A stretch of DNA of 64,000 nucleotides, taken from assembly GCA_026874595.1 (NCBI GenBank), contig CM049315.1, positions 72,275,416 through 72,339,415 of the forward strand, in the 5' to 3' direction. The translations under genes were made by a program, and so were the position numbers. The notes below the pieces were generated by a model. It was not told where the DNA came from. It did no database searches and was given only the letters and a program-made list of their open reading frames with translations. This stretch comes from Sipunculus nudus. Taxonomy: Eukaryota; Annelida; Sipuncula; Golfingiida; Sipunculidae. How positions within the stretch are numbered: position 1 is the stretch's first letter; each line of letters begins with the position of its first letter. Of this stretch, positions 1,433 to 64,000 are shown piece after piece.

Positions 1433-1583
1433 ACTCCTCTTTGACTTTTGAAAATCAGCAAGACCTTATTCATATGTGCTGCTGTTTTCCCCATGATAGA
1501 GGTTTTTCATTTGATCAGATACAAATATTCCCTGTCTGTCTGCCTAGTAACTGTCTATCTATTTCGCTGTCTTATTTCCAGTC

Positions 1584-2084
1584 ACTTTCGGCAAGCGTTC
1601 GACCTCAGGTCGTCTAGTTTGTTTGTCTGTCTGTCTGTCTGTCTGTGTACTTTCTACAGGCCACAATTTTCCAGCAATTGCTTTCAAACTTATACAGCTG
1701 GTAGACAAGCAAAAGTCCTGGAGGCCTATTTTTTTTGGGCATTATAGGTCAAATGATAAGGTCAAGGTCATCAAAAGTATACAAAACGGTTTTTTGTTCA
1801 TATCTGTGTTAATATTGGTCGTATCTACTTCAACAGTAGCTCATTTTAATCGTCATTCCAAGGCCTGTTTTCTGGTGTGTAGCTGACTCAATTTGCGGTA
1901 ACCATGGTAACGCATTTTTGGGGAAAAGTGCTGATATTTTTCTAAATTTGTCAGTTTTAAAGCTACAGAGGTCTAGTTTTTTGCTTCAGGTAGCATTCAC
2001 CTAGTACTACAAGATTCTATTAAGAGTCTCGCAATATCTCGTATAATATCTCGTCAAACGAGATATTTCGAGATTTCAGTAATC
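1584..2084 (+). repeat. TCTG cassette, type 1, first copy
   Basis: In order: a palindrome CGACCTCAGGTCG (1600-1612), a TCTG tract (1621-1646), a gtac-tttctacag box, a degenerate AGGTCA cluster near 1747-1770, an X-box-like GTAACCATGGTAAC (1898-1911), and a perfect 10-bp hairpin AATATCTCGT/ACGAGATATT with CAA loop (2045-2067). The order is the same in every later cassette. Type 1 is recognised by 'ccagcaattgctttcaaac' and 'gcggtaaccatggtaacg'. Confidence 0.8.
1898..1911 (+). promoter_or_regulatory. RFX X-box-like motif in type 1 cassette
   Basis: GTAACC-AT-GGTAAC fits the X-box consensus GTNRCC(0-3N)RGYAAC at all fixed positions with a 2-nt spacer. Seven further copies have the same 14 bases at 7410, 11845, 16293, 23480, 27918, 41856 and 59945. 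The match is seen; RFX binding is not established. Confidence 0.45.
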
Positions 2085-2975
2085 TTGCCCTGGAGGCCAC
2101 AGTTTTGCAGGAATCTTTTTGAAACTGACATATTGAAAGTCCTACACTATTATCTCGAAATCAATTTTTCATTTTTTTTAATTCGGCCGCTAGGGGGCGC
2201 TGGGTGCAAACCTCTCCAACATATCATGTTTTGGCAATATCTCCAAAATTATAAGCCTCAATTACAAAAACTATAGTTTATTTTTTTCATCTAAGTCTTC
2301 TTCATGAACTCGTTTAGTCATCTGGTCTCAATCTTGTGTCACTTTGTCTGTGTGTCCGTCTGTTTCTTAGTTGTCCTCAAATCCGCTTGCTTGCCGGTTC
2401 TTGCGTCTCACATATAGCCTTCTACAGGACACAGTTTTGAAAGAATCTTTTTAAAACTATTACATCTTATGTCTCACACTAATATCTCGAAACCAATTTT
2501 TCATTTTCCAGAATTGGCCGCTAGGGGGCGGTGCACTCAAACTTGCACAACATATCATTTTTTGGCCATATCTCCAAAACTATAAACATCATTTACATAA
2601 ACTATAGCTTATTTTCTTCCTCTGGGTCTTTCCAAAAACCTGGTGTATTCATTTGGTCTCAATCTTGAGTCACTTTGTCTGTGTGTCCGTCTGTTTCTCA
2701 GTTGTCCTCAAATTCGCTTCCTTGTCGGTTCTTGCGTCTCACATGTAGCATTCTACAGGCCACAGTTTTGAAAGAATCCTTTTAAAACTATTACATCTTA
2801 TGTCTTATACTAATATTTCGAAACCAATTTTTCATTTTCCAGAATTGGCCGCCAGGGGGCGGTGCACTCAAACTTGCACAACATATCATTTTTTTGCCAT
2901 ATCTCCAAAACTATTAACCTCATTTACATAAATTATAGCTTATTATCTTCCTCTTAGGTTTTTCCATTACATGAT
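2068..2975 (+). repeat. Three 331-bp monomers in tandem
   Basis: CTCF-like cores at 2187, 2518 and 2849 give an exact 331-bp period. Each monomer runs: tctacaggccacag box, 'taatatctcgaaa', pyrimidine-rich ttttcattttccag, CTCF-like core, 'ggccatatctccaaaact', 'ctatagcttatt', a cactttgtctgtgtgtccg stretch, and 'gcttgccggttcttgcgtctcac'. This trio is the basic building block and is repeated through the window. Confidence 0.85.
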
Positions 2976-3300
2976 TAAGTCATTTGTTCTCAATCTTGGG
3001 TCAGTATGTTTGTCTGTTTGTCAGTTGTCCTCAATTTCGCCTGCTTCCTGGTTCTTGCGTCTCACATGTTGCATTCTACTGGCCACAGTTTTGCAGGAAT
3101 CGTTTTGTAAATTACACTTGTCATATATCGTGATGATATCTGGAAGCCCTATGTTTATTACTCAAATAAGTTAAAGATCAAGGTCAAGGTGATCAAAATA
3201 TATCAAAATCTTATTTTCTTTAGAACTTTGTTAATATTTCTTCTTTCTTCACAAACTATGGATTATTTTCTTTCACTTTGACACTGCTCGTTTATCTGAC

Positions 3301-3890
3301 TAACTTTACATCATTTCCAGCAAGCGCGTGACCTCAGGTCATCTAGTTTGTTGCTTGCCGGAAATCTTCGATTTCTGCAAGCAGGTTGGTCAGTCGCGGA
3401 TGTCTGTTTGTCTGTTTGTCTGTCTGTCTGTCTGTGTACTCTCTACAGGCCACAATTTTCCAGCAATTGCTTTCAAACTTATACAGCTGGTAGAAAAGCA
3501 AAAGTCCTGGAGGCCTTTTGTTTTTGGGCAATATAGGTCAAAGGTCAAGGTCAAGGTCATCAAAAGTATACAAAACGGTTTTTTCTTCATATCTTTGTTA
3601 CTTTTAGGGATATCTTCTTCAAACATAGCTCATTTTAAAGGTCATTCCCAGGCCTTTCTTCTAGTGTGTAGCTCTTTTAAATTGGCCGTTACCATGGTTA
3701 CAAATTTTTGGGAAAAAATCATGATATTCGAAAATCTGGGGTCTTATTTTTCTAACTTTGTCATTTTTAAAGCTAGAGAGGTCTAGTTTTTTGCATCAGG
3801 TAGCATTTAACAAGTACTGCAAGATTTTATTAAAAGTATCGCGATATCTCGTATAATATCTCGTCAAACGAGATATTTCGAGATTTCAGT
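3301..3890 (+). repeat. TCTG cassette with one hairpin module and four AGGTCA half-sites
   Basis: One hairpin module (from 3352) sits directly in the TCTG tract (about 3397-3436). Four perfect AGGTCA half-sites follow at 3535-3559 with spacings 1, 0 and 0 (a DR1 plus two abutting repeats). The CCATGG centre near 3693 reads GTTACCATGGTTAC. Confidence 0.75.
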
Positions 3891-11376: not shown

Positions 11377-11556
11377 TTGCTCGCCGGAAATCTTCGATTT
11401 CTGCAGGCAGGTTGGCCAGTCGCAAATGTCTGTTTGTTGCTTGCCGGAAATCTTCGATTTCTGCAAGCAGGTTGGTCAGTCGCGGATGTCTGTTTGTTGC
11501 TTGCCGGAAATCTTCGATTTCTGCAAGCAGGTTGGTCAGTCGCGGATGTCTGTTTG
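11377..11556 (+). repeat. Three tandem 60-bp hairpin modules
   Basis: Exact 60-bp period, starting at 11377, 11437 and 11497. Copies 2 and 3 hold a 32-nt inverted repeat (11438-11469 in copy 2): outer arms TGCTTGC/GCAAGCA, inner arms GAAATC/GATTTC, loop TTC, 13 base pairs in all. Copy 1 has TGCTCGC/GCAGGCA outer arms, keeping five Watson-Crick pairs plus one T-G pair. The same arrangement occurs at 15825, 23012 and 27450 (three copies), 30975 and 38650 (three, one step of 72 bp) and 43084 (four). Confidence 0.85.
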
Positions 11557-11593
11557 TCTGTTTGTTTGTTTGTCTGTCTGTCTGTCTGTCTGT

Positions 11594-11610
11594 GTACTCT
11601 CTACAGGCCA
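11594..11610 (+). other. Splice-acceptor-like box after the TCTG tract
   Basis: The pyrimidine-rich TCTG tract is followed by gtactctctacag and then gcc, which fits a 3' splice site (pyrimidine tract, CAG, G). The box recurs after essentially every TCTG tract in the window. It is a resemblance only; no donor or exon is supported. Confidence 0.3.
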
Positions 11611-11844
11611 CAATTTTCCAGCAATTGCTTTCAAACTTATACAGCTGGTAGACAAGCAAAAGTCCTGGAGGCCTATTTTTTTGGGGCATTATAGGTCAAA
11701 TGTCAAGGTCAAGGTCATCAAAAGTATACAAAACGGTTTTTTGTTCATATCTGAGTTAATATTGGTCGTATCTACTTCAACAGTAGCTCATTTTAATCGT
11801 CATTCCAAGGCCTGTTTTCTGGTATGTAGCTGACTCAATTTGCG

Positions 11845-11858
11845 GTAACCATGGTAAC
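11845..11858 (+). promoter_or_regulatory. RFX X-box-like motif in H0
   Basis: GTAACC-AT-GGTAAC, the same 14 bases as at 1898. It sits about 290 bp upstream of the CTCF-like core at 12132. Confidence 0.45.
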
Positions 11859-12131
11859 GCATTTTTGGGGAAAGTGCTGATATTTTTCTAAATTTGTCAG
11901 TTTTAAAGCTACAGAGGTCTAGTTTTTTGCTTCAGGTAGCATTCACCTAGTACTACAAGATTCTATTAAGAGTCTCGCAATATCTCGTATAACATCTCGT
12001 CAAACGAGATATTTCGAGATTTCAGTAATCTTGCCCTGGAGGCCACAGTTTTGCAGGAATCTTTTTGAAACTGGCATATCTTAAGTCCTACACTATTATC
12101 TCGAAATCAATTTTTCATTTTTTTAATTCGG

Positions 12132-12147
12132 CCGCTAGGGGGCGCTG
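12132..12147 (+). promoter_or_regulatory. CTCF-like core CCGCTAGGGGGCGCTG
   Basis: With its flanks this site matches 18 of 19 positions of the CTCF consensus YGRCCASYAGRKGGCRSYR as I remember it; the single mismatch is G for A at position 6. Neighbouring sites in H0 are at 12465, 12796, 13962, 14886 and 15218. Invertebrate bilaterians generally have CTCF, but binding here is untested. Confidence 0.5.
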
Positions 12148-13282
12148 GGTGCAAACCTTTCCAACATATCATGTTTTGGCAATATCTCCAAAATTATAAG
12201 CCTCAATTACAAAAACTATAGTGTTTTTTTTTTTCCTCTAAGTCTTCTTCATGAACTCGTTTAGTCATCTGGTCTCAATCTTGTGTCACTTTGTCTGTGT
12301 GTCCGTCTGTTTCTCAGTTGTCCTCAAATCCGCTTGCTTGCCGGTTCTTGCGTTTCACATATAGCATTCTACAGGACACAGTTTTGAAAGAATCTTTTTA
12401 AAACTATTACATCTTATGTCTTACACTAATATCTCGAAACCAATTTTTCATTTTCCAGAATTGGCCGCTAGGGGGCGGTGGACTCAAACTTGCACAACAT
12501 ATAATTTTTTGGCCATATCTCCAAAACTATAAACCTAATTCACATAAACTATAGCTTATTTTCTTCCTCTGGGTCTTTCAAAAAACCTGGTGTATTCATT
12601 TGGTCTCAATCATGAGTCACTTTGTCTGTGTGTCCGTCTGTTTCTCAGTTGTCTCCAAATCCGCTTGCTTGCCGGTTCTTGCGTCTCACATATAGCATTC
12701 TACAGGCCACAGCTTTGAAAGAATCCTTTTAAAGCTATTACATCTTATGTCTTACACTAATATCTCGAAACGGATTTTTCATTTTTCAGAATTGGCCGCT
12801 AGGGGGCGGTGCACTCAAACTTGCACAACATATCATTTTTTGGCCATATCTCCAAAACTATAAACCTCATTTACATAAACTATAGCTTATTATCTTCCTC
12901 TAAGGTTTCTTCATAACATGATTAAGTCATCTGTTCACAATCTTGGGTCAGTTTGTCAGTATGTTGTCTGTTTGTCAGTTGTCCTCAATTTCGCCTGCTT
13001 CCTGGTTCTTGCGTCTCACATGTAGCATTCTACTGGCCACAGTTTTGCAGGAATCGTTTTGTAAATTACACTTGTCATATATCGTGATGATATCTGGAAG
13101 TCCTATGTTTATTATTCAAATAAGTCAAAGGTCAAGGTCAAGGTGATCAAAATATATCAAAATCTTATTTTCTTTAGAACTTTGTTAATATTGCTTCTTT
13201 CTTCACAAACTATGGATTATTTTCTTTCACTTTGACACTGCTCGTTCATCTGACTAACTTTACATCATTTCCGGCAAGCGCG

Positions 13283-13295
13283 TGACCTCAGGTCA
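13283..13295 (+). promoter_or_regulatory. Everted AGGTCA pair (TGACCT-C-AGGTCA)
   Basis: A 13-bp palindrome made of two AGGTCA half-sites facing outward with one base between, just before the TCTG tract. Type 1 and 2 cassettes mostly keep it. Type 3 cassettes carry TGACCTTTGGTCA instead, which breaks both half-sites at the centre. Confidence 0.45.
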
Positions 13296-14287
13296 TCTAG
13301 TCTGTTTGTTTGTTGCTTGCCGGAAATCTTCGATTTCTGCAAGCAGGTTGGTCAGTCGCGGATGTCTGTTTGTCTGTTTGTTTGTTTGTCTGTCTGTCTG
13401 TGTACTCTCTACAGGCCACAATTTTGCAGCAATTGCTTTTAAACTTACACAGCTGATAGACAAGCAAAAGTCCTCGAGGCATATTGTTATTGGGCGACAT
13501 AGGTCCAAGGTCAAGGTCAAGGTCATCAAAACTTCTCAAAACGGTTTTTTCTTCATGTCTTTGTAACTGTTAGTGGTATCTTCTTCAAACATAGCTCATT
13601 TTAAACGTCATTCCCAGGCCTTTCTTCTGGTGTGTAGCTCTTTCAAATTTGCCGTAACCATGGTTACGCATTTTGGGGAAAAAGTCATGATATTCTGAAA
13701 TAAGGGGTCTTATTTTTCTAACTTTGTCAGTTTTAAAGCTAGAGAGGTCTAGTTTTTTGCATCAGGTAGCATTTGACAAGAACTGCAAGATTTTATTAAA
13801 AGTCTCGCGATATCTCGTACAATATCTCGTCAAACCAGATATTTCGAGATTTCAGTAATCTTGCCCTGGAGGCCACAGTTTTGCAGGAATCTTTTTGAAA
13901 CTGACATATTGAAAGTCCTACACTATTATCTCGAAATCAATTTTTCATTTTTTTAATTCGGCCGCTAGGGGGCGCTGGGTGCAAACCTCTCCAACATATT
14001 ATGTTTTGGCAATATCTCCAAAATTATAAGCCTCACAATTTTGCAGGAGTCGCTTTGTAACTTACACTTGTCGTAACGATATCTGGAAGCCCTATGTTTA
14101 TTATTCAAATAAGTCAAAGGTCAAGGTCAAGGTGATCAAAACATATCAACATTTTTTTTCTTCAGAACTTTGTTAATATTGATCCTATCTTTACAAACTA
14201 GGGATTATTTTCTTTCACTTTGACATTGATCGTTTATCTGACTAACTTTACGTCATTTCCGGCAAGCGCGTGACCTTTGGTCATCTA

Positions 14288-14333
<46 letters not shown>

Positions 14334-15387
14334 GTACTCTCTACAGGCCATAATTTTAAGGCAATTGCCTTTTAACTTATACAGCTGGTAGACAAGCAAA
14401 AGTCCTCGGGGCCTATTGTTTTTGGGCAATACAGGTCAAGGTCAAGGTCATCAAAACTTCTCAAAACGGTTTTTTCTTCATATCTTTGTCACTATTAGTC
14501 GTATCTTCTTCAAACATAGCTCATTTTAAACGTCATTCCAAGGCCAGTCATCTGGTGTGTAGCTGACTCAAATTTGCCGTAACCATTGTTACGAATTTTT
14601 GGGAAAAAATCATGATATTCTGAAATAAGGGGTCTTATTTTTCTAACTTTGTCAGTTTTAAAGCTAGAGAGGTCTAGTTTTTTGCATCAGGTAGCATTTA
14701 ACAAGTACTGCAGATTTTATTAAAAGTCTCGCGATATCTCGTACAATATCTCGTCAAACCAGATATTTCGAGATTTCAGTAATCTTGCCCTGGAGGCCAC
14801 AGTTTTGCAGGAATCTTTTTGAAACTGACATATTGAAAGTCCTACACTATTATCTCGAAATCAATTTTTCATTTTTTTAATTCGGCCGCTAGGGGGCGCT
14901 GGGTGCAAACCTCTCCAACATATTATGTTTTGGCAATATCTCCAAAATTATAAGCCTCAATTACATAAACCATAGCTTATTTTCTTCCTCTGAGTCTTTT
15001 CAAAATCCTGGTGGAGTCATTTCGACTCAATCTTGTCTCACTTTGTCAGTGTGTCCGTCTGTTTCACAGTTGTCCTCAAATCCGCTTGCTTGCCGGTTCT
15101 TGCGTCTCACATATACCATTCTACAGGGGACAGTTTTGAAAGAATCCTTTTTAAACTATTACATCTTATGTCTTACACTAATATCTCGAAACCCATTTTT
15201 TCATTTTCCAGAATTGGCCGCTAGGGGGCGTTGCACATGACCCTCACTCACATATCATTATTTTGGCCATATCTCTAAAACCCAAAGACTCAATTACATA
15301 AACTATAGCTTATGTTCTTCCTTTGAGTCCTCCCCATAACCTGGTTAAGTCATCTGGTCTCGGTCTTGTGTCACTTTGTCAGTATGT

Positions 15388-18300
15388 CCATATAAACTTT
15401 ATAAACGGAGGGAAACATGAATGCACAGAGTCATGCAGGAATGCACGATGACACGCGTTTTAGTAAGACAAAGACACGTGTAGGTATGAGCGACAATCAG
15501 CGCAGTTTGCTCGTTTTGTGTAGGGTCCATCGGGCCAAATGCCAATTCAGGCCCGCAGCCTACGGGAGGAATTAATTGGCGTAGCGGGGACCACGGCCAC
15601 TTCCTGGTAAAAACTTGTGAATAAATATACCGGACGGGCTAACCATTTTCTCAGGGCCATAGGAATGTCACCATTCCAGCGTGCCCTCAGACCTGGTCAG
15701 ACCTGGTCAGACCTAAAACGCGTGCCTGCACATCTGTGCGCATGCAGGTGATTGCTGTCCAAAGTTTCAGTCGCTGTGTCCTTCAGGAAAGGACCCGAAC
15801 CGTTTTTTTTTTTTTTTTTTTTAATTGCTCGCCGGAAATCTTCGATTTCTGCAGGCAGGTTGGCCAGTCGCAAATGTCTGTTTGTTGCTTGCCGGAAATC
15901 TTCGATTTCTGCAAGCAGGTTGGTCAGTCGCGGATGTCTGTTTGTTGCTTGCCGGAAATCTTCGATTTCTGCAAGCAGGTTGGTCAGTCGCGGATGTCTG
16001 TTTGTCTGTTTGTTTGTTTGTCTGTCTGTCTGTCTGTCTGTGTACTCTCTACAGGCCACAATTTTCCAGCAATTGCTTTCAAACTTATACAGCTGGTAGA
16101 CAAGCAAAAGTCCTGGAGGCCTATTTTTTTTGGGCATTATAGGTCAAATGTCAAGGTCAAGGTCATCAAAAGTATACAAAACGGTTTTTTGTTCATATCT
16201 GAGTTAATATTGGTCGTATCTACTTCAACAGTAGCTCATTTTAATCGTCATTCCAAGGCCTGTTTTCTGGTATGTAGCTGACTCAATTTGCGGTAACCAT
16301 GGTAACGCATTTTTGGGGAAAGTGCTGATATTTTTCTAAATTTGTCAGTTTTAAAGCTACAGAGGTCTAGTTTTTTGCTTCAGGTAGCATTCACCTAGTA
16401 CTACAAGATTCTATTAAGAGTCTCGCAATATCTCGTATAACATCTCGTCAAACGAGATATTTCGAGATTTCAGTAATCTTGCCCTGGAGGCCACAGTTTT
16501 GCAGGAATCTTTTTGAAACTGGCATATCTTAAGTCCTACACTATTATCTCGAAATCAATTTTTCATTTTTTTAATTCGGCCGCTAGGGGGCACTGGGTGC
16601 AAACCTTTCCAACATATCATGTTTTGGCAATTTCTCCAAAATTATAAGCCTCAATTACAAAAACTATAGTGTTTTTTTTTTCCTCTAAGTCTTCTTCATG
16701 AACTCGTTTAGTCATCTGGTCTCAATCTTGTGTCACTTTGTCTGTGTGTCCGTCTGTTTCTCAGTTGTCCTCAAATCCGCTTGCTTGCCGGTTCTTGCGT
16801 TTCACATATAGCATTCTACAGGACACAGTTTTGAAAGAATCTTTTTAAAACTATTACATCTTATGTCTTACACTAATATCTCGAAACCAATTTTTCATTT
16901 TCCAGAATTGGCCGCTAGGGGGCGGTGGACTCAAACTTGCACAACATATAATTTTTTGGCCATATCTCCAAAACTATAAACCTCATTCACATAAACTATA
17001 GCTTATTTTCTTCCTCTGGGTCTTTCAAAAAACCTGGTGTATTCATTTGGTCTCAATCATGAGTCACTTTGTCTGTGTGTCCGTCTGTTTCTCAGTTGTC
17101 TCCAAATCCGCTTGCTTGCCGGTTCTTGCGTCTCACATATAGCATTCTACAGGCCACAGCTTTGAAAGAATCCTTTTAAAGCTATTACATCTTATGTCTT
17201 ACACTAATATCTCGAAACGGATTTTTCATTTTCCAGAATTGGCCGCTAGGGGGCGGTGCACTCAAACTTGCACAACATATCATTTTTTGGCCATATCTCC
17301 AAAACTATAAACCTCATTTACATAAACTATAGCTTATTATCTTCCTCTAAGGTTTCTTCATAACATGATTAAGTCATCTGTTCACAATCTTGGGTCAGTT
17401 TGTCAGTATGTTGTCTGTTTGTCAGTTGTCCTCAATTTCGCCTGCTTCCTGGTTCTTGCGTCTCACATGTAGCATTCTACTGGCCACAGTTTTGCAGGAA
17501 TCGTTTTGTAAATTACACTTGTCATATATCGTGATGATATCTGGAAGTCCTATGTTTATTATTCAAATAAGTCAAAGGTCAAGGTCAAGGTGATCAAAAT
17601 ATATCAAAATCTTATTTTCTTTAGAACTTTGTTAATATTGCTTCTTTCTTCACAAACTATGGATTATTTTCTTTCACTTTGACACTGCTCGTTCATCTGA
17701 CTAACTTTACATCATTTCCGGCAAGCGCGTGACCTCAGGTCATCTAGTCTGTTTGTTTGTTGCTTGCCGGAAATCTTCGATTTCTGCAAGCAGGTTGGTC
17801 AGTCGCGGATGTCTGTTTGTCTGTTTGTTTGTTTGTCTGTCTGTCTGTGTACTCTCTACAGGCCACAATTTTGCAGCAATTGCTTTTAAACTTACACAGC
17901 TGATAGACAAGCAAAAGTCCTCGAGGCCTATTGTTATTGGGCGACATAGGTCCAAGGTCAAGGTCAAGGTCATCAAAACTTCTCAAAACGGTTTTTTCTT
18001 CATATCTTTGTAACTGTTAGTGGTATTTTCTTCAAACATAGCTCATTTTAAACGTCATTCCCAGGCCTTTCTTCTGGTGTGTAGCTCTTTCAAATTTGCC
18101 GTAACCATGGTTACGCATTTTGGGGAAAAAGTCATGATATTCTGAAATAAGGGGTCTTATTTTTCTAACTTTGTCAGTTTTAAAGCTAGAGAGGTCTAGT
18201 TTTTTGCATCAGGTAGCATTTGACAAGAACTGCAAGATTTTATTAAAAGTCTCGCGATATCTCGTACAATATCTCGTCAAACCAGATATTTCGAGATTTC

Positions 18301-18734: not shown

Positions 18735-18772
<38 letters not shown>

Positions 18773-49284: not shown

Positions 49285-50909
49285 CCATATAAACTTTATA
49301 AACGGAGGGAAACCTGAATGCACAGAGTCATGCAGGAATGCACGATGACACGCGTTTTAGTAAGACAAAGACTCGTGTAGGTATGAGCGACAATCAGCGC
49401 AGTTTGCTCGTTTTGTGTAGGGTCCATCGGGCCAAATGCCAATTCAGGCCCGCAGCCGACGGGATGAATTAATTGGTGTAGCGGGGACCACGGCCATTTC
49501 CTGGTAAAAACTTGTGAATAAATATACCGGACGGGCTGACCATTTTCTCAGGGCCATAGGAATGTCACCATTCCAGTGTGCCCTCAGACCTGGTCAGACC
49601 TGGTCAGACCTGGTCAGACCTAAAACGCGTGCCTGCACATCTGTGCGCATGCAGGTGATTGCTGTCCAAAGTTTCGGTCGGTGAGTCCTTCAGGAAAGGA
49701 CCCGAACCGTTTTTTTTTTTAATTGCTTGCCGGAAATCTTCCATTTCTGCAGGCAGGTTGGCCAGTCGCAAATGTCTGTTTATTGCTTGCCGGAAATCTT
49801 CGATTTCTGCAAGCAGGTTGGTCAGTCGCGGATGTCTGTTTGTCTGTTTGTTTGTTTGTTTGTCTGTCTGTCTGTCTGTGTACTCTCTACAGGCCATAAT
49901 TTTAAGGCAATTGCCTTATAACTTATACAGCTGGTAGACAAGCAAAAGTCCTCGGGGCCTATTGTTTTTGGGCAGTACAGGTCAAAGGTCAAGGTCAAGG
50001 TCATCAAAAGTTCTCAAAACGGTTTTTTCTTCATATCTTTGTCACTATTAGTCGTATCTTCTTCAAACATAGCTCATTTTAAACGTCATTCCAAGGCCAG
50101 TCATCTGGTGTGTAGCTGACTCAAATTTGCCGTAACCATGGTTACGAATTTTTGGGAAAAAGTCATGATATTCTGAAATAAGGGGTCTTATTTTTCTAAC
50201 TTTGTCAGTTTTAAAGCTAGAGAGGTCTAGTTTTTTGCATCAGGTAGCATTTAACAAGTACTGCAAGATTTTATTAAAATTCTCGCGATATCTCGTACAA
50301 TATCTCGTCAAACGAGATATTTCGAGATTTCAGTAATCTTGCCCTGAAGGCCACAGTTTTGCAGGAATCTTTTTCAAACTGACATATTGAAAATCCTACA
50401 CTATTATCTCGAAATCAATTTTTCATTTTTTTAATTCGGCCGCTAGGGGGCGCTGGGTGCAAACCACTCCAACATATCATGTTTTGGTAATATCTCCAAA
50501 ATTATAAGCCTCAATTACATAAACCATAGCTTTTTTTCTTCCTCTGAGTCTTTTCAAAATCCTGGTGTAGTCATTTTGACTCAATCTTGAGTCACTTTGT
50601 CAGTGTGTCCGTCTGTTTCTCAGTTGTCCTCAAATCCGCTTGCTTGCCGGTTCTTGCGTCTCACATATAGCATTCTACAGGACACATCTTATGTCTTACA
50701 CTAATATCTCGAAACCGATTTTTCATTTTCCAGAATTGGCCGCTAGGGGGCGCTGCACATGACCCTCACACACATACCATCATATTGGCCATATCTCTAA
50801 AACCCAAAGACTCAATTACATAAACCATAGCTTATGTTCTTCGTCTGAGTCTTCTCCATAACCTGGTTAAGTCATCTGGTCTCGGTCTTGTGTCACTTTG
50901 TCAGTATGT
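49285..50909 (+). repeat. Unit U4 (1625 bp), variant B
   Basis: Carries all variant B marks of U2, including the rare 'ggtgtagcgg' and 11 T. Cores 50440 and 50740. Confidence 0.9.
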
Positions 50910-52533
50910 CCATATAAACTTTATAAACGGAGGGAAACCTGAATGCACAGAGTCATGCAGGAATGCACGATGACACGCGTTTTAGTAAGACAAAGACTCG
51001 TGTAGGTATGAGCGACAATCAGCGCAGTTTGCTCGTTTTGTGTAGGGTCCATCGGGCCAAATGCCAATTCAGGCCCGCAGCCGACGGGATGAATTAATTG
51101 GCGTAGCGGGGACCACGGCCATTTCCTGGTAAAAACTTGTGAATAAATATACCGGACGGGCTGACCATTTTCTCAGGGCCATAGGAATGTCACCATTCCA
51201 GTGTGCCCTCAGACCTGGTCAGACCTGGTCAGACCTGGTCAGACCTAAAACGCGTGCCTGCACATCTGTGCGCATGCAGGTGATTGCTGTCCAAAGTTTC
51301 GGTCGGTGAGTCCTTCAGGAAAGTACCCGAACCGTTTTTTTTTTAATTGCTTGCCGGAAATCTTCCATTTCTGCAGGCAGGTTGGCCAGTCGCAAATGTC
51401 TGTTTATTGCTTGCCGGAAATCTTCGATTTCTGCAAGCAGGTTGGTCAGTCGCGGATGTCTGTTTGTCTGTTTGTTTGTTTGTTTGTCTGTCTGTCTGTC
51501 TGTGTACTCTCTACAGGCCATAATTTTAAGGCAATTGCCTTATAACTTATACAGCTGGTAGACAAGCAAAAGTCCTCGGGGCCTATTGTTTTTGGGCAGT
51601 AAAGGTCAAAGGTCAAGGTCAAGGTCATCAAAAGTTCTCAAAACGGTTTTTTCTTCATATCTTTGTCACTATTAGTCGTATCTTCTTCAAACATAGCTCA
51701 TTTTAAACGTCATTCCAAGGCCAGTCATCTGGTGTGTAGCTGACTCAAATTTGCCGTAACCATGGTTACGAATTTTTGGGAAAAAGTCATGATATTCTGA
51801 AATAAGGGGTCTTATTTTTCTAACTTTGTCAGTTTTAAAGCTAGAGAGGTCTAGTTTTTTGCATCAGGTAGCATTTAACAAGTACTGCAAGATTTTATTA
51901 AAATTCTCGCGATATCTCGTACAATATCTCGTCAAACGAGATATTTCGAGATTTCAGTAATCTTGCCCTGAAGGCCACAGTTTTGCAGGAATCTTTTTCA
52001 AACTGACATATTGAAAATCCTACACTATTATCTCGAAATCAATTTTTCATTTTTTTAATTCGGCCGCTAGGGGGCGCTGGGTGCAAACCACTCCAACATA
52101 TCATGTTTTGGTAATATCTCCAAAATTATAAGCCTCAATTACATAAACCATAGCTTATTTTCTTCCTCTGAGTCTTTTCAAAATCCTGGTGTAGTCATTT
52201 TGTCTCAATCTTGAGTCACTTTGTCAGTGTGTCCGTCTGTTTCTCAGTTGTCCTCAAATCCGCTTGCTTGCCGGTTCTTGCGTCTCACATATAGCATTCT
52301 ACAGGACACATCTTATGTCTTACACTAATATCTCGAAACCGATTTTTCATTTTCCAGAATTGGCCGCTAGGGGGCGCTGCACATGACCCTCACACACATA
52401 CCATCATATTGGCCATATCTCTAAAACCCAAAGACTCAATTACATAAACCATAGCTTATGTTCTTCGTCTGAGTCTTCTCCATAACCTGGTTAAGTCATC
52501 TGGTCTCGGTCTTGTGTCACTTTGTCAGTATGT
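50910..52533 (+). repeat. Unit U5 (1624 bp), mixed A/B
   Basis: Begins as variant A ('ggcgtagcgg', 'aaagtacccg', 10 T), then has the new 'gcagtaaaggtc' shared with U6, then the B-type 'ctcgcgatat' and A-type 'agcttattttc', and a private 'cattttgtctcaatc'. The mosaic suggests gene conversion or crossover. Confidence 0.8.
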
Positions 52534-54147
52534 CCATATAAACTTTATAAACGGAGGGAAACCTGAATGCACAGAGTCATGCAGGAATGCACGATGACAC
52601 GCGTTTTAGTAAGACAAAGATTCGTGTAGGTATGAGCGACAATCAGCGCAGTTTGCTCGTTTTGTGTAGGGTCCATCGGGCCAAATGCCAATTCAGGCCC
52701 GCAGCCGACGGGATGAATTAATTGGCGTAGCGGGGACCACGGCCATTTCCTGGTAAAAACTTGTGAATAAATATACCGGACGGGCTGACCATTTTCTCAG
52801 GGCCATAGGAATGTCACCATTCCAGTGTGCCCTCAGACCTGGTCAGACCTGGTCAGACCTAAAACGCGTGCCTGCACATCTGTGCGCATGCAGGTGATTG
52901 CTGTCCAAAGTTTCGGTCGGTGAGTCCTTCAGGAAAGGACCCGAACCGTTTTTTTTTTAATTGCTTGCCGGAAATCTTCCATTTCTGCAGGCAGGTTGGC
53001 CAGTCGCAAATGTCTGTTTATTGCTTGCCGGAAATCTTCGATTTCTGCAAGCAGGTTGGTCAGTCGCGGATGTCTGTTTGTCTGTTTGTTTGTTTGTTTG
53101 TCTGTGTGTCTGTCTGTGTACTCTCTACAGGCCATAATTTTAAGGCAATTGCCTTATAACTTATACAGCTGGTAGACAAGCAAAAGTCCTCGGGGCCTAT
53201 TGTTTTTGGGCAGTAAAGGTCAAAGGTCAAGGTCAAGGTCATCAAAAGTTCTCAAAACGGTTTTTTCTTCATATCTTTGTCAGTTTTAGTCGTATCTTCT
53301 TCAAACATAGCTCATTTTAAACGTCATCCCAAGGCCAGTCATCTGGTGTGTAGCTGACTCAAATTTGCCGTAACCATGGTTACGAATTTTTGGGAAAAAG
53401 TCATGATATTCTGAAATAAGGGGTCTTATTTTTCTAACTTTGTCAGTTTTAAAGCTAGAGAGGTCTAGTTTTTTGCATCAGGTAGCATTTAACAAGTACT
53501 GCAAGATTTTATTAAAATTCTCGCGATATCTCGTACAATATCTCGTCAAACGAGATATTTCGAGATTTCAGTAATCTTGCCCTGAAGGCCACAGTTTTGC
53601 AGGAATCTTTTTCAAACTGACATATTGAAAATCCTACACTATTATCTCGAAATCAATTTTTCATTTTTTTAATTCGGCCGCTAGGGGGCGCTGGGTGCAA
53701 ACCACTCCAACATATCATGTTTTGGTAATATCTCCAAAATTATAAGCCTCAATTACATAAACCATAGCTTATTTTCTTCCTCTGAGTCTTTTCAAAATCC
53801 TGGTGTAGTCATTTTGACTCAATCTTGAGTCACTTTGTCAGTGTGTCCGTCTGTTTCTCAGTTGTCCTCAAATCCGCTTGCTTGCCGGTTCTTGCGTCTC
53901 ACATATAGCATTCTACAGGACACATCTTATGTCTTACACTAATATCTCGAAACCGATTTTTCATTTTCCAGAATTGGCCGCTAGGGGGCGCTGCACATGA
54001 CCCTCACACACATACCATCATATTGGCCATATCTCTAAAACCCAAAGACTCAATTACATAAACCATAGCTTATGTTCTTCGTCTGAGTCTTCTCCATAAC
54101 CTGGTTAAGTCATCTGGTCTCGGTCTTGTGTCACTTTGTCAGTATGT
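52534..54147 (+). repeat. Unit U6 (1614 bp)
   Basis: One CAGACCTGGT fewer than U1-U5. Private changes include 'aaagattcgtg', a GTGTG interruption in the TCTG tract (near 53105), 'gtcagttttagtcg' and 'cgtcatcccaagg'. Shares 'gcagtaaaggtc' with U5. Confidence 0.85.
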
Positions 54148-55760
54148 CCATATAAACTTTATAAACGGAGGGAAACCTGAATGCACAGAGTCATGCAGGA
54201 ATGCACGATGACACGCGTTTTAGTAAGACAAAGACTCGTGTAGGTATGAGCGACAATCAGCGCAGTTTGCTCGTTTTGTGTAGGGTCCATCGGGCCAAAT
54301 GCCAATTCAGGCCCGCAGCCGACGGGATGAATTAATTGGCGTAGCGGGGACCACGGCCATTTCCTGGTAAAAACTTGTGAATAAATATACCGGACGGGCT
54401 GACCATTTTCTCAGGGCCATAGGAATGTCACCATTCCAGTGTGCCCTCAGACCTGGTCAGACCTGGTCAGACCTAAAGCGCGTGCCTGCACATCTGTGCG
54501 CATGCAGGTGATTGCTGTCCAAAGTTTCGGTCGGTGAGTCCTTCAGGAAAGGACCCGAACCGTTTTTTTTTAATTGCTTGCCGGAAATCTTCCATTTCTG
54601 CAGGCAGGTTGGCCAGTCGCAAATGTCTGTTTATTGCTTGCCGGAAATCTTCGATTTCTGCAAGCAGGTTGGTCAGTCGCGGATGTCTGTTTGTCTGTTT
54701 GTTTGTTTGTTTGTCTGTCTGTCTGTCTGTGTACTCTCTACAGGCCATAATTTTAAGGCAATTGCCTTATAACTTATACAGCTGGTAGACAAGCAAAAGT
54801 CCTCGGGGCCTATTGTTTTTGGGCAGTACAGGTCAAAGGTCAAGGTCAAGGTCATCAAAAGTTCTCAAAACGGTTTTTTCTTCATATCTTTGTCACTATT
54901 AGTCGTATCTTCTTCAAACATAGCTCATTTTAAACGTCATTCCAAGGCCAGTCATCTGGTGTGTAGCTGACTCAAATTTGCCGTAACCATGGTTACGAAT
55001 TTTTGGGAAAAAGTCATGATATTCTGAAATAAGGGGTCTTATTTTTCTAACTTTGTCAGTTTTAAAGCTAGAGAGGTCTAGTTTTTTGCATCAGGTAGCA
55101 TTTAACAAGTACTGCAAGATTTTATTAAAATTCTCGCGATATCTCGTACAATATCTCGTCAAACGAGATATTTCGAGATTTCAGTAATCTTGCCCTGAAG
55201 GCCACAGTTTTGCAGGAATCTTTTTCAAACTGACATATTGAAAATCCTACACTATTATCTCGAAATCAATTTTTCATTTTTTTAATTCGGCCGCTAGGGG
55301 GCGCTGGGTGCAAACCACTCCAACATATCATGTTTTGGTAATATCTCCAAAATTATAAGCCTCAATTACATAAACCATAGCTTATTTTCTTCCTCTGAGT
55401 CTTTTCAAAATCCTGGTGTAGTCATTTTGACTCAATCTTGAGTCACTTTGTCAGTGTGTCCGTCTGTTTCTCAGTTGTCCTCAAATCCGCTTGCTTGCCG
55501 GTTCTTGCGTCTCACATATAGCATTCTACAGGACACATCTTATGTCTTACACTAATATCTCGAAACCGATTTTTCATTTTCCAGAATTGGCCGCTAGGGG
55601 GCGCTGCACATGACCCTCACACACATACCATCATATTGGCCATATCTCTAAAACCCAAAGACTCAATTACATAAACCATAGCTTATGTTCTTCGTCTGAG
55701 TCTTCTCCATAACCTGGTTAAGTCATCTGGTCTCGGTCTTGTGTCACTTTGTCAGTATGT
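54148..55760 (+). repeat. Unit U7 (1613 bp)
   Basis: Two CAGACCTGGT, 'cctaaagcgcgtg' where others have 'cctaaaacgcgtg', and only 9 T. Identical to U8 at every mark I checked. Confidence 0.85.
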
Positions 55761-57373
55761 CCATATAAACTTTATAAACGGAGGGAAACCTGAATGCACA
55801 GAGTCATGCAGGAATGCACGATGACACGCGTTTTAGTAAGACAAAGACTCGTGTAGGTATGAGCGACAATCAGCGCAGTTTGCTCGTTTTGTGTAGGGTC
55901 CATCGGGCCAAATGCCAATTCAGGCCCGCAGCCGACGGGATGAATTAATTGGCGTAGCGGGGACCACGGCCATTTCCTGGTAAAAACTTGTGAATAAATA
56001 TACCGGACGGGCTGACCATTTTCTCAGGGCCATAGGAATGTCACCATTCCAGTGTGCCCTCAGACCTGGTCAGACCTGGTCAGACCTAAAGCGCGTGCCT
56101 GCACATCTGTGCGCATGCAGGTGATTGCTGTCCAAAGTTTCGGTCGGTGAGTCCTTCAGGAAAGGACCCGAACCGTTTTTTTTTAATTGCTTGCCGGAAA
56201 TCTTCCATTTCTGCAGGCAGGTTGGCCAGTCGCAAATGTCTGTTTATTGCTTGCCGGAAATCTTCGATTTCTGCAAGCAGGTTGGTCAGTCGCGGATGTC
56301 TGTTTGTCTGTTTGTTTGTTTGTTTGTCTGTCTGTCTGTCTGTGTACTCTCTACAGGCCATAATTTTAAGGCAATTGCCTTATAACTTATACAGCTGGTA
56401 GACAAGCAAAAGTCCTCGGGGCCTATTGTTTTTGGGCAGTACAGGTCAAAGGTCAAGGTCAAGGTCATCAAAAGTTCTCAAAACGGTTTTTTCTTCATAT
56501 CTTTGTCACTATTAGTCGTATCTTCTTCAAACATAGCTCATTTTAAACGTCATTCCAAGGCCAGTCATCTGGTGTGTAGCTGACTCAAATTTGCCGTAAC
56601 CATGGTTACGAATTTTTGGGAAAAAGTCATGATATTCTGAAATAAGGGGTCTTATTTTTCTAACTTTGTCAGTTTTAAAGCTAGAGAGGTCTAGTTTTTT
56701 GCATCAGGTAGCATTTAACAAGTACTGCAAGATTTTATTAAAATTCTCGCGATATCTCGTACAATATCTCGTCAAACGAGATATTTCGAGATTTCAGTAA
56801 TCTTGCCCTGAAGGCCACAGTTTTGCAGGAATCTTTTTCAAACTGACATATTGAAAATCCTACACTATTATCTCGAAATCAATTTTTCATTTTTTTAATT
56901 CGGCCGCTAGGGGGCGCTGGGTGCAAACCACTCCAACATATCATGTTTTGGTAATATCTCCAAAATTATAAGCCTCAATTACATAAACCATAGCTTATTT
57001 TCTTCCTCTGAGTCTTTTCAAAATCCTGGTGTAGTCATTTTGACTCAATCTTGAGTCACTTTGTCAGTGTGTCCGTCTGTTTCTCAGTTGTCCTCAAATC
57101 CGCTTGCTTGCCGGTTCTTGCGTCTCACATATAGCATTCTACAGGACACATCTTATGTCTTACACTAATATCTCGAAACCGATTTTTCATTTTCCAGAAT
57201 TGGCCGCTAGGGGGCGCTGCACATGACCCTCACACACATACCATCATATTGGCCATATCTCTAAAACCCAAAGACTCAATTACATAAACCATAGCTTATG
57301 TTCTTCGTCTGAGTCTTCTCCATAACCTGGTTAAGTCATCTGGTCTCGGTCTTGTGTCACTTTGTCAGTATGT
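55761..57373 (+). repeat. Unit U8 (1613 bp)
   Basis: Same length and same marks as U7 (aaagcgcg, 9 T, two CAGACCTGGT). U7 and U8 are probably the most recent single-unit duplication. Confidence 0.85.
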
Positions 57374-58825
57374 CCATATAAACTTTATAAACGGAGGGAA
57401 ACCTGAATGCACAGAGTCATGCAGGAATGCACGATGACACGCGTTTTAGTAAGACAAAGACTCGTGTAGGTATGAGCGACAATCAGCGCAGTTTGCTCGT
57501 TTTGTGTAGGGTCCATCGGGCCAAATGCCAATTCAGGCCCGCAGCCGACGGGATGAATTAATTGGCGTAGCGGGGACCACGGCCATTTCCTGGTAAAAAC
57601 TTGGGAATAAATATACCGGACGGGCTGACCATTTTCTCAGGGCCATAGGAATGTCACCATTCCAGTGTGCCCTCAGACCTGGTCAGACCTGGTCAGACCT
57701 GGTCAGACCTAAAACGCGTGCCTGCACATCTGTGCGCATGCAGGTGATTGCTGTCCAAAGTTTCGGTCGGTGAGTCCTTCAGGAAAGGACCCGAACCGTT
57801 TTTTTTTTAATTGCTTGCCGGAAATCTTCCATTTCTGCAGGCAGGTTGGCCAGTCGCAAATGTCTGTTTATTGCTTGCCGGAAATCTTCGATTTCTGCAA
57901 GCAGGTTGGTCAGTCGCGGATGTCTGTTTGTCTGTTTGTTTGTTTGTTTGTCTGTCTGTCTGTCTGTGTACTCTCTACAGGCCATAATTTTAAGGCAATT
58001 GCCTTATAACTTATACAGCTGGTAGACAAGCAAAAGTCCTCGGGGCCTATTGTTTTTGGGCAGTACAGGTCAAAGGTCAAGGTCAAGGTCATCAAAAGTT
58101 CTCAAAACGGTTTTTTCTTCATATCTTTGTCACTATTAGTCGTATCTTCTTCAAACATAGCTCATTTTAAACGTCATTCCAAGGCCAGTCATCTGGTGTG
58201 TAGTTGACTCAAATTTGCCGTAACCATGGTTACGAATTTTTGGGAAAAAGTCATGATATTCTGAAATAAGGGGTCTTATTTTTCTAACTTTGTCAGTTTT
58301 AAAGCTAGAGAGGTCTAGTTTTTTGCATCAGGTAGCATTTAACAAGTACTGCAAGATTTTATTAAAATTCTCGCGATATCTCGTACAATATCTCGTCAAA
58401 CGAGATATTTCGAGATTTCAGTAATCTTGCCCTGAAGGCCACAGTTTTGCAGGAATCTTTTTCAAACTGACATATTGAAAATCCTACACTATTATCTCGA
58501 AATCAATTTTTCATTTTTTTAATTCGGCCGCTAGGGGGCGCTGGGTGCAAACCACTCCAACATATCATGTTTTGGTAATATCTCCAAAATTATAAGCCTC
58601 AATTACATAAACCATAGCTTATTTTCTTCCTCTGAGTCTTTTCAAAATCCTGGTGTAGTCATTTTGACTCAATCTTGAGTCACTTTGTCAGTGTGTCCGT
58701 CTGTTTCTCAGTTGTCCTCAAATCCGCTTGCTTGCCGGTTCTTGCGTCTCACATATAGCATTCTACAGGACACATCTTATGTCTTACACTAATATCTCGA
58801 AACCGATTTTTCATTTTCCAGAATT
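57374..58825 (+). repeat. Unit U9, truncated end of the short array
   Basis: Three CAGACCTGGT and 10 T, private 'cttgggaataaa' and 'gtagttgactc'. The second monomer passes at about 58826 into a different form ('gaattgcccgctagagggcggtgcactcaaac'), where the short array stops. Confidence 0.85.
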
Positions 58826-61800: not shown

Positions 61801-62386
61801 AAGGGGTCTTATTTTTCTAACTTTGTCAGTTTTAAAGCTAGAGAGGTCTAGTTTTTTGCATCAGGTAGCATTTGACAAGAACTGCAAGATTTTATTAAAA
61901 GTCTCGCGATATCTCGTACAATATCTCGTCAAACCAGATATTTCGAGATTTCAGTAATCTTGCCCTGGAGGCCACAGTTTTGCAGGAATCTTTTTGAAAC
62001 TGACATATTGAAAGTCCTACACTATTATCTCGAAATCAATTTTTCATTTTTTTAATTCGGCCGCTAGGGGGCGCTGGGTGCAAACCTCTCCAACATATTA
62101 TGTTTTGGCAATATCTCCAAAATTATAAGCCTCACAATTTTGCAGGAGTCGCTTTGTAACTTACACTTGTCGTAACGATATCTGGAAGCCCTATGTTTAT
62201 TATTCAAATAAGTCAAAGGTCAAGGTCAAGGTGATCAAAACATATCAACATTTTTTTTCTTCAGAACTTTGTTAATATTGATCCTATCTTTACAAACTAG
62301 GGATTATTTTCTTTCACTTTGACATTGATCGTTTATCTGACTAACTTTACGTCATTTCCGGCAAGCGCGTGACCTTTGGTCATCTA

Positions 62387-62428
<42 letters not shown>

Positions 62429-63483
62429 GTACTCTCTACAGGCCATAATTTTAAGGCAATTGCCTTTTAACTTATACAGCTGGTAGACAAGCAAAAGTCC
62501 TCGGGGCCTATTGTTTTTGGGCAATACAGGTCAAGGTCAAGGTCATCAAAACTTCTCAAAACGGTTTTTTCTTCATATCTTTGTCACTATTTGTCGTATC
62601 TTCTTCAAACATAGCTCATTTTAAACGTCATTCCAAGGCCAGTCATCTGGTGTGTAGCTGACTCAAATTTGCCGTAACCATGGTTACGAATTTTTGGGAA
62701 AAAATCATGATATTCTGAAATAAGGGGTCTTATTTTTCTAACTTTGTCAGTTTTAAAGCTAGAGAGGTCTAGTTTTTTGCATCAGGTAGCATTTAACAAG
62801 TACTGCAAGATTTTATTAAAATTCTCGCGATATCTCGTACAATATCTCGTCAAACCAGATATTTCGAGATTTCAGTAATCTTGCCCTGGAGGCCACAGTT
62901 TTGCAGGAATCTTTTTGAAACTGACATATTGAAAGTCCTACACTATTATCTCAAAATCAATTTTTCATTTTTTTAATCCGGCCGCTAGGGGGCGCTGGGT
63001 GCAAACCTCTCCAACATATTATGTTTTGGCAATATCTCCAAAATTATAAGCCTCAATTACATAAACCATAGCTTATTTTCTTCCTCTGAGTCTTTTCAAA
63101 ATCCTGGTGGAGTCATTTCGACTCAATCTTGTCTCACTTTGTCAGTGTGTCCGTCTGTTTCTCAGTTGTCCTCAAATCCGCTTGCTTGCCGGTTCTTGCG
63201 TCTCACATATACCATTCTACAGGGGACAGTTTTGAAAGAATCCTTTTAAAACTATTACATCTTATGTCTTACACTAATATCTCGAAACCCATTTTTTCAT
63301 TTTCCAGAATTGGCCGCTAGGGGGCGTTGCACATGACCCTCACTCACATATCATTATATTGGCCATATCTCTAAAACCCAAAGACTCAATTACATAAACT
63401 ATAGCTTATGTTCTTCCTTTGAGTCTTCCCCATAACCTGGTTAAGTCATCTGGTCTCGGTCTTGTGTCACTTTGTCAGTATGT
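58826..63483 (+). repeat. 4.4-kb-type sequence without anchor
   Basis: Cores 58827 (CCGCTAGAGGGCGG) and 59159, type 1 cassette (about 59640-60140, X-box-like 59945, TCTG without module), cores 60233, 60564 and 60895, type 2 cassette with one module (61412), core 62061, type 3 cassette (nine TCTG, 62392-62427), cores 62982 and 63314. The order matches H0 minus its anchor and modules. Confidence 0.85.
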
Positions 63484-64000
63484 CCATATAAACTTTATAA
63501 ACGGAGGGAAACCTGACTGCACAGAGTCATGCAGGAATGCACGATGACACGCGTTTTAGTAAGACAAAGACTCGTGTAGGTATGAGCGACAATCAGCGCA
63601 GTTTGCTCGTTTTGTGTAGGGTCCATCGGGCCAAATGCCAATTCAGGCCCGCAGCCGACGGGATGAATTAATTGGCGTAGCGGGGACCACGGCCATTTCC
63701 TGGTAAAAACTTGTGAATAAATATACCGGACGGGCTGACCATTTTCTCAGGGCCATAGGAATGTCACCATTCCAGTGTGCCCTCAGACCTGGTCAGACCT
63801 GGTCAGACCTAAAACGCGTGCCTGCACATCTGTGCGCATGCAGGTGATTGCTGTCCAAAGTTTCGGTCGGTGAGTCCTTCAGGAAAGGACCCGAACGGTT
63901 TTTTTTTTTAATTGCTCGCCGGAAATCTTCCATTTCTGCAGGCAGGTTGGCCAGTCGCAAATATCTGTTTATTGCTTGCCGGAAATCTTCGATTTCTGCA
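63484..64000 (+). repeat. Start of another short-subfamily unit, cut by the window edge
   Basis: Anchor with short-subfamily bases ('aaacctga', 'aaagactcgtg', 'gccgacgggatg', 'ttcggtcggtgagtcc') and a short poly-T, followed by a hairpin module pair. A private change 'cctgactgcac' is present. A second short array may begin here. Confidence 0.8.

Follow-up and report, generated by a model that had tools for sequence, protein, structure and literature searches.

A macrosatellite with CTCF-type sites in one orientation is one array of a dispersed repeat family and is probably bound by CTCF

The window, i.e., the whole 64-kb stretch of DNA that was analysed, is occupied from position 1578 to its right end by a tandem macrosatellite, whose modules and parts are as follows.

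1..1577, no strand: sequence without window copies (tested to position 1500) and without any site reaching 13 bits
1578..64000, + strand: tandem macrosatellite, extending 4.2 kb beyond the right window end
1656..2075, + strand: X module, without a site, with the marker words GTNACCATGGTNAC and AAGGTCAAGGTCAAGGTCA
2095..3106, + strand: three successive monomers of about 331 bp (m1, m2, m2) with one site apiece
2184..2202, + strand: first CTCF-like site, CGGCCGCTAGGGGGCGCTG, 20.9 bits
3120..3345, + strand: T module, which ends the unit; ATTTCC(A/G)GCAAGC lies close to its end
3352..3410, + strand: K module (unit start), with the inverse complement GCTTGCCGGAAAT at its beginning
11378..31166, + strand: higher-order part with a period of about 4.44 kb, variable (K3-X-m-m-m-T, K-X-m-T, X-m-p-B)
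31177..36250, + strand: oldest part, monomers 71–82% identical to the m2 probe
42645..43060, + strand: B module (17 copies exist), containing TCAGACCTGG repeats; a T run follows directly
43390..57976, + strand: youngest part, nine units of 1.61–1.63 kb (X-m1-p-B-K)

When the window was compared with itself, bins from 1 to 1500 had no other copies of at least 120 bp and the bin 1501–1750 had 37, and the first unit end lies at 1584–1596. The original prediction had placed the array at 1578..64000; this start of the repeats was confirmed, but it is not the true edge of the array, as sites continue on both sides. The 10-kb flanks outside the window hold 8 sites on the left and 5 on the right, all on the + strand and none on the − strand. 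Because the repeats with the 8 further sites stand 3.2–9.9 kb to the left, positions 1–1577 are an interruption and not the array edge. Across 84 kb the array carries 97 sites in one direction, with none opposed.

The words typical of the X module occur 33 times (GTNACCATGGTNAC) and 21 times (AAGGTCAAGGTCAAGGTCA) in the window, and units end in inverted 13-bp sequences, GCTTGCCGGAAAT / ATTTCCGGCAAGC, at the K and T modules. In the oldest part, sites start at 31632, 32088, 32906, 33908, 35476, and 35925, and a decayed copy of 8.8 bits lies at 33577. This part contains a duplication with an offset of 1274 bp (861 bp in common at 99.4%), and a site-bearing monomer splits the X halves; inverted repeats of at least 14 bp were not found around the insertion at 34.2–35.4 kb. 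The units of the youngest part are 99.7% identical on average in pairwise comparison (minimum 99.5%, gaps ignored). The family was locally amplified into long head-to-tail arrays, latest as 1.6-kb units that are 99.7% identical.

In order to count CTCF-type sites, we scanned the window with a CTCF matrix compiled by ourselves (maximum 26.1 bits) and a site threshold of 13 bits. This resulted in 84 matches on the + strand and none on the − strand, where the top score was 11.07 bits. With this matrix the sites score 13.6–22.6 bits and the main forms 20.9 bits; a score of 20.85 corresponds to a p of about 6e-9 per position. First-order shuffles (50, with both strands pooled) yielded a mean of 1.2 matches when the threshold was 12 bits and of 0.06 when it was 16 bits, and the best single match had 18.6 bits. 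The pattern CCGCTAGGGGGCG, allowing up to one mismatch, has 81 matches in the window, every one on the + strand, compared to 0.01 expected. The hand count of about 85 sites in a single orientation, from which this analysis started, is therefore borne out by the 84 sites and the decayed copy. The prediction that most copies match 17–18 of 19 CTCF consensus positions also held: when the 84 sites are compared to a majority consensus of the matrix over its 19 positions, 66 sites agree at 18 positions, 16 sites at 17, and two sites at 16. The human CTCF consensus CCASYAGRKGGCRS is matched at 13 of 14 positions by 68 of the 84.

These values bear on the view that the array arose by chance or as an assembly artefact. 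Assemblers can miscount units that are 99.7% identical, but expectations of 0.01 pattern matches and 0.06 matrix matches, as well as divergent copies, which occur within the window and also elsewhere in the genome, make this explanation highly improbable.

Including the decayed copy, the macrosatellite has a site density of 1.36/kb, and the longest step between sites is 1568 bp. The 83 steps fall into classes of 330–333 bp (30 steps), 300 bp (10), 1313–1325 bp (9), 903–924 bp (8), 1166 bp (7), and 1359–1363 bp (4), with 15 others; the steps noticed earlier by eye (331–333, about 916, 1166, and 300 + 1325 bp) are all among them. The site has a fixed place within the monomer of about 331 bp, and each mapped X-to-X unit holds at least one site in the common orientation. 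The block TATCTCGAAA, about 36 bp upstream of the core start, is present in 80 of 85 window monomers, ATATCTC(C/T)AAAA, about 50 bp downstream of the core, is present in 78 of 85, and all 85 window monomers with both flanks hold the motif or its decayed form. The uniform direction of the sites is due to head-to-tail repetition. Orientation as a sign of function was rejected, since tandem duplication alone yields it.

A coding role of the repeat was considered as well. Stop-to-stop frames of 110 aa or more number 29; one lies at 1092–1451, and the others extend into the array. A Pfam search with eight of the 29 gave no match for six; for the other two, matches were confined to 12–22 residues (PF23251, 1.5e-5, above its cut-off; PF05465, 7e-4, below its cut-off) and were taken as spurious, and a protein-coding repeat was rejected. 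In the window no RNA gene was matched in Rfam and no tRNA was found by ARAGORN in the bacterial setting. Four patterns, two per collection, had no match in viral and prokaryote contigs, which is uninformative for an animal repeat.

In the 1.43-Gb host genome the exact core occurs 6126 times, on both strands and in many clusters, while the reversed control does not occur. The window array is therefore one of many, and the idea of a unique locus, a singular CTCF platform as first proposed, was abandoned. Adjoining clusters may be opposed in direction, as are C1:7643750-7656197 (− strand) and 7657158-7657824 (+ strand), and a separate array at C1:283-307 kb has a different, also CTCF-like core, CCACCAGGGGGCG, of 18.1 bits.

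Absence of a CTCF gene from the host would have spoken against the original prediction. Judged by sequence, the host has a CTCF-type gene (C11:67037578-67038510) with eleven fingers and an open frame of 989 aa without a stop. It is 56% identical to human CTCF over residues 2–309 of the 314-residue finger region, while the next best match in the genome reaches 41%, and the best PDB match of the protein is CTCF. Fingers 3–7 of CTCF read the core. The DNA-contacting helix residues of fingers 3, 4, and 5 are identical in the host and human proteins; fingers 1, 2, and 6–11 differ at one or more contacts (e.g., QNSA for QGTM in finger 6 and RTDI for RSDV in finger 7). As fingers 3–5 share the contact residues of human CTCF, the host protein is very likely able to bind many sites of the family.

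We favour the view, at a probability of roughly two in three, that an old repeat family with a strong CTCF-type site in each monomer of about 331 bp was amplified into arrays that are probably bound by CTCF. The family is old, dispersed, and non-coding. If bound, the array would serve as a dense CTCF platform of a single direction, at which nucleosomes would be phased and cohesin might be stalled; the family may act as a spreader of CTCF sites genome-wide.

It is also quite conceivable that the site is a passenger: an ancient repeat or a mobile element, holding a CTCF-type word by chance, would have given rise to the monomer, which spreads by itself, its sites having no role, bound or not. The many dispersed clusters of exact cores on both strands, the inverted unit ends, and the lack of detected coding capacity are in agreement with this. 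In the window, blocks beside the core are equally conserved (TAATATCTCGAAA above the core, CATATCTCCAAAA almost equal to it). To look at copies independently of the motif, we chose 100 genome copies via the upstream block alone. In this sample the site scores 13 bits or more in 85 copies; 15 fall below 13 bits, and 7 below 10 bits. Scores below 10 bits were found in 6 of 25 isolated copies versus 1 of 66 clustered copies, as is expected if exchange, and not selection, holds array copies alike. On the other hand, among 27 genome types the core 13-mer (conservation 0.857) ranks first of 133 windows outside the selecting block, the next non-overlapping window reaching 0.742, and distinct subfamilies carry different yet CTCF-compatible cores, both of which argue against a mere passenger. 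Close to the selecting block, conservation of the core may partly reflect proximity to that block.

A reading of selection on the site from matrix costs was suggestive in the window but failed in the larger genome sample: costly matrix positions are avoided by the substitutions of the window sample (p 0.048, 0.011), whereas those of the genome sample show no such agreement with the CTCF matrix (p 0.22, 0.38, 0.52). Conservation tracks matrix information weakly (rank 28/238 in the window; 5/127, 32/126, and 37/126 in genome samples). For six old window copies, site retention fits drift if divergence is halved (p 0.08).

The failure of genome-sample substitutions to follow the matrix would also fit a composite of TATCTCGAAA, core, and ATATCTCCAAAA that targets another protein or complex, e.g., a transposase or another zinc-finger protein, with the CTCF resemblance being secondary. 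The composite has a fixed order and nearly fixed spacing in the window monomers, and the genome has many zinc-finger proteins and at least 325 protein matches to the CTCF fingers. Common descent would equally give fixed spacing, however, and the main forms reach 20.9 of at most 26.1 bits. Among 21 distinct changes in the window, two raise the CTCF score (G>A at matrix position 6, T>C at position 8), although nine cost at least 3 bits. We consider a target of another protein unlikely.

According to one article, the way in which loops form is unknown for most invertebrates, and CTCF-dependent loop extrusion is so far vertebrate-only (PMC12221973). Another reports no relation of motif orientation to domain boundaries in the two echinoderms it studied and calls the relevance of orientation outside vertebrates unresolved (PMC13317027). 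Should the host be an invertebrate of the Bilateria, this array and its many sister arrays facing either way are a natural experiment on CTCF direction, and Hi-C would be expected to give either stripes on one side, the side changing with the direction of the array, or no signal. A further reading, which seems doubtful, is that in the genome of a non-vertebrate the family has planted CTCF sites by the thousand, with arrays as strong one-directional cohesin barriers; orientation-dependent CTCF function would then be pre-vertebrate or have arisen twice. The family also allows site retention in arrays and loss in isolated copies to be watched.

Like DXZ4/Dxz4, FIRRE, and ICCE on the mammalian X, the window array is a large non-coding head-to-tail tandem repeat with CTCF-type sites. 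DXZ4 has a GC-rich unit of about 3 kb at a single locus. The DXZ4 parallel drawn in the original prediction stands for the CTCF-type sites in tandem units and is otherwise an analogy only, as the window family has units of 0.3–4.4 kb at many loci and, unlike the GC-rich and CpG-rich DXZ4, a G+C content of 0.40 and a CpG o/e of 0.72. The orientation of Dxz4 is described as shaping contacts (PMC5899087; PMC6985041). A variable human tRNA tandem repeat at 1q23.3 is reported to bind CTCF at each unit (PMC4041453). Its unit is 7.3 kb long, GC-rich, and tRNA-bearing, unlike the window array. A mammalian retrotransposon family reportedly spreads CTCF sites, in work attributed to Schmidt et al. 2012; such retroelements are dispersed, whereas the window family forms tandem arrays. 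A placozoan Mutator repeat is described as carrying an architectural loop-anchor motif (PMC12221973). That motif is not CTCF and the elements are dispersed, unlike the tandem family of the window. CTCF is not known from non-bilaterians. The FII core of chicken beta-globin HS4 is given as CCGCTAGGGGGCAG (PMC6746451). FII is a single site in a vertebrate insulator, unlike the multi-site array, and the window core is nearly the same: 22 of the 84 sites match it at 13 of 14 positions and 55 at 12.

Scanning of the window with a CTCF matrix (a version of JASPAR MA0139.1, on which all bit scores rest) revealed 84 sites of 13.6–22.6 bits on the + strand, and no site above 11.1 bits on the − strand. 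At 16 bits or more, 82 sites were found in the window versus 0.06 per 64 kb in shuffled sequence (both strands, n = 50). The top single score among the fifty shuffles was 18.6 bits, and the per-position probability of a score of 20.85 bits is about 6e-9. Likewise, CCGCTAGGGGGCG with at most one mismatch matched 81 times in the window, always on the + strand (0.01 expected). Together with one decayed copy, these sites bear out the original prediction of a macrosatellite with about 85 CTCF-like sites in one direction, as does the comparison with shuffled sequence that it had proposed.

CTCF-like sites in the window (19 bases, start positions, + strand, matrix as above)
Sites 1–12: 2184, 2515, 2846, 3993, 4323, 4654, 5741, 6071, 6622, 7695, 8026, 8357
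Sites 13–24: 9523, 10436, 10768, 12129, 12462, 12793, 13959, 14883, 15215, 16577, 16909, 17240
Sites 25–36: 18406, 19323, 19656, 19987, 21153, 22069, 22401, 23764, 24097, 24428, 25594, 26511
Sites 37–48: 26843, 28202, 28535, 28866, 30032, 30364, 31632, 32088, 32906, 33908, 35476, 35925
Sites 49–60: 36805, 37708, 38040, 39428, 40343, 40675, 41008, 42142, 42473, 43938, 44238, 45562
Sites 61–72: 45862, 47187, 47487, 48812, 49112, 50437, 50737, 52061, 52361, 53675, 53975, 55288
Sites 73–84: 55588, 56901, 57201, 58525, 58825, 59156, 60230, 60561, 60892, 62058, 62979, 63311
Decayed copy: 33577, + strand, 8.8 bits

Independently of the matrix, the sites were compared with the human CTCF consensus as given in PMC6746451 (CCASYAGRKGGCRS), which was matched at 14 of 14 positions by one of the 84 sites, at 13 by 68, at 12 by 14 and at 11 by one. 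For the chicken beta-globin HS4 FII core (CCGCTAGGGGGCAG, same source) the match was 13/14 in 22 sites, 12/14 in 55, 11/14 in four, 10/14 in two and 9/14 in one. The usual mismatch of the window sites, a G instead of A as third base of the core, is shared by FII.

The genome searched comprises 1,426,538,692 bases in 153 contigs, the window being C10:72275416-72339415. The exact core occurred 3461 times on the + strand and 2665 times on the − strand, while the pattern read backwards as a control occurred 0 times. The 100 core matches listed, which all lie on contig C1, form clusters with steps of, e.g., 327, 331, 1122, 1185 and 1274 bp, and include single copies. Among these listed matches direction is mostly uniform inside a cluster and differs between clusters; adjacent ones at 7643750-7656197 (−) and 7657158-7657824 (+) are opposed. 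The 10 kb to the left of the window hold 8 + and 0 − sites and the 10 kb to the right 5 and 0, which gives 97 + versus 0 − sites for the window with both flanks (84 kb). Our data demonstrate that strong CTCF-type words are carried by a repeat family. A literature search (titles and abstract starts of open-licence papers; the core string was also sought) found no such family described. A sister array at C1:283-307 kb (L038-L051), with steps of mostly 1.26–1.34 kb, has a different core, CCACCAGGGGGCG; thirteen of its 14 copies score 18.1 bits and the remaining one 12.9.

Conservation of the core was compared with that of its surroundings. Flank models without the motif, made from 15 types originally picked through the motif, mapped one-to-one onto all 85 copies, with 52 extra matches for the left and 10 for the right model, none reaching the junction. 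Over the 15 types (less than 90% alike) mean identity was 0.884 for the 13-base core versus 0.634 for the flanks; 5 of 244 windows did better, all part of TAATATCTCGAAA, and CATATCTCCAAAA followed close behind. Six old copies, a set without the seventh at 32906 (a near-duplicate of 31632), show flank divergence of 21–43%, and five of them kept at least 13 bits (neutral simulation: p 0.0001 at full divergence, 0.08 at half). Compared with random changes, distinct substitutions were cheaper in bits (p 0.048 with 15 types and 0.011 with 85), and the fit of conservation to matrix information reached only rank 28 of 238 in this sample.

A sample blind to the motif was drawn through the neighbouring block TATCTCGAAANNNATTTTTCATTTT, which has 4127 occurrences in the genome (reversed control 0); the 100 listed, all on C1 (L035-L134), were inspected. 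Within 25–60 bases from the block start, 85 of the 100 copies reached at least 13 bits, 8 scored 10–13 and 7 less. In the first 50, the best match lay 31–33 bases past the block start; scored on its reverse strand, that stretch gave 0/50 at 10 bits. Clustered copies (at least two listed neighbours within 5 kb, counting only exact matches to the block) reached 13 bits in 60/66 cases and fell below 10 in 1/66, those with one listed neighbour reached 13 bits in 7/9, and isolated copies in 18/25, with 6/25 below 10 (clustered versus isolated: p 0.0015 for the 10-bit limit and 0.039 for the 13-bit limit, array copies being non-independent). Among the seven copies below 10 bits, the core lacks one base in three, and in two the match gives way to different sequence. 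The core ranked first of 133 windows outside the selecting block over 27 types (0.857 versus a mean of 0.632; next non-overlapping window 0.742), in part perhaps because it lies near that block. It was first of 132 over 18 types (0.843) and seventh of 132 over 14 isolated types, where non-overlapping windows were all at or below 0.69. Distinct substitutions in the genome sample did not fit the CTCF matrix (p 0.22, 0.38, 0.52), and the ranks for matrix information were 5 of 127, 32 of 126 and 37 of 126. Most frequent among the changes were G>A at position 6 (8/27 types) and C>G at position 17 (six types), both tolerated or preferred by CTCF, as was noted after the fact. From these comparisons the core is likely under constraint, and this constraint may be for CTCF.

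The original prediction had also turned on a CTCF gene in the species and its zinc fingers. With the human CTCF fingers as query (identical to PDB 7w1m_H), a candidate gene was located at C11:67037578-67038510 (L009), with 56% identity over residues 2–309 of 314 (E 4e-109); the next genome match had 41%. Its open frame of 989 aa without stop includes all eleven fingers. Read as 906 aa (start cut by the locus), the product had CTCF as best PDB match, and Pfam returned general C2H2 families only. The product contains 11 C2H2-like matches. By sequence similarity, the host carries a CTCF-type gene. Eleven fingers in a CTCF would suggest that the host is a bilaterian, judging from PMC12221973 and PMC13317027. 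CTCF fingers 3–7 read the core. At helix positions −1, 2, 3 and 6, host and human contacts are the same in fingers 3 (TGER), 4 (ESKR) and 5 (DYKR), finger 6 has QNSA versus human QGTM, and finger 7 RTDI versus RSDV; each of the remaining six differs in at least one contact.

CTCF would be expected to bind many sites of the family, where it could phase nucleosomes and possibly act as a barrier to cohesin. Molluscs, annelids and rotifers are reported to have CTCF orthologues, and none was found in flatworms in that account (PMC10658182). In the annelid Dimorphilus the CTCF motif is described as the commonest in open chromatin, mostly single and of no clear direction (PMC7854359). Domain boundaries of squid are enriched in a CCCTC-like motif (PMC9023564), and in three coleoids the loop anchors showed CTCF-like motifs (PMC12407938). 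The CTCFs of the sea star and the sea urchin are reported to have lost two fingers, and boundaries there are enriched with no orientation bias (PMC13317027). Given these reports from spiralians and echinoderms, a directional effect in the host, if it is such an animal, would be new; its absence is as plausible as its presence.

From about 1578 to its end the window is repeated almost throughout (BLAST of 250-base bins), and all copies of at least 120 bp lie on the + strand. No further copy of this length was present in the window for bins 1-1500 and for a few bins within the old part (31-36 kb). A module map was made with probes cut from the window itself.

Modules of the array
Site-bearing monomers m1, m2 and variant p: about 331 bp, + strand
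K module: about 60 bp, + strand, start is the inverse complement of a motif near the T end
X module: about 440 bp, + strand, probe match
T module: + strand, carries the K start as inverse complement close to its end
B module: about 416 bp, 17 copies, + strand, probe match

At 11–31 kb the period is about 4.44 kb, with variations, and K-X-m-m-m-T, K-X-m-T and X-m-p-B are combined, while 43.4–58.0 kb holds nine X-m-p-B-K units of 1.61–1.63 kb (mean identity 99.7%). The material at 31.2–36.2 kb is old and diverged. It contains a duplication at an offset of 1274 bp (861 bp shared, 99.4% identity) in which X is split in two by a site-bearing monomer, so that such a piece was either lost from the main X or gained by the old one. 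T and X both open with a stretch akin to the left portion of the monomer (weak to moderate scores). The B probe had no match in the old part, where a more sensitive search gave short matches only (best 25 bp at 88%).

ATTTCC(A/G)GCAAGC near the T end and GCTTGCCGGAAAT at the K start are inverse complements, 23–35 bp apart at 3313-3365, 8831-8891, 13267-13327 and 41482-41530, as might result from tandem joining of an element's inverted termini. A mostly unrelated stretch of about 1.2 kb (34186-35400) breaks into the old monomers; it starts with AGCTCAGCTGACTTTCAGTC and has no inverted repeats of at least 14 bp. AAGGTCA and TGTCCGTC runs, of a kind found in spiralian genomes, give the impression of an invertebrate host. 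The X module is marked by TCAAGGTCA (94 on the + strand, 0 on the − strand, 1 expected on +), which resembles a nuclear-receptor half-site, and by GTAACCATGGT(A/T)AC, similar to an RFX X-box (e.g., X at 43390-43830, 31495 and 32769); both are largely retained in the old diverged X copy. Counted across the entire array, ATATCTC(G/C) has 173 occurrences on the + strand and 20 on the − strand (1.8 expected on +), and its forms lie on either side of the core at nearly fixed distances.
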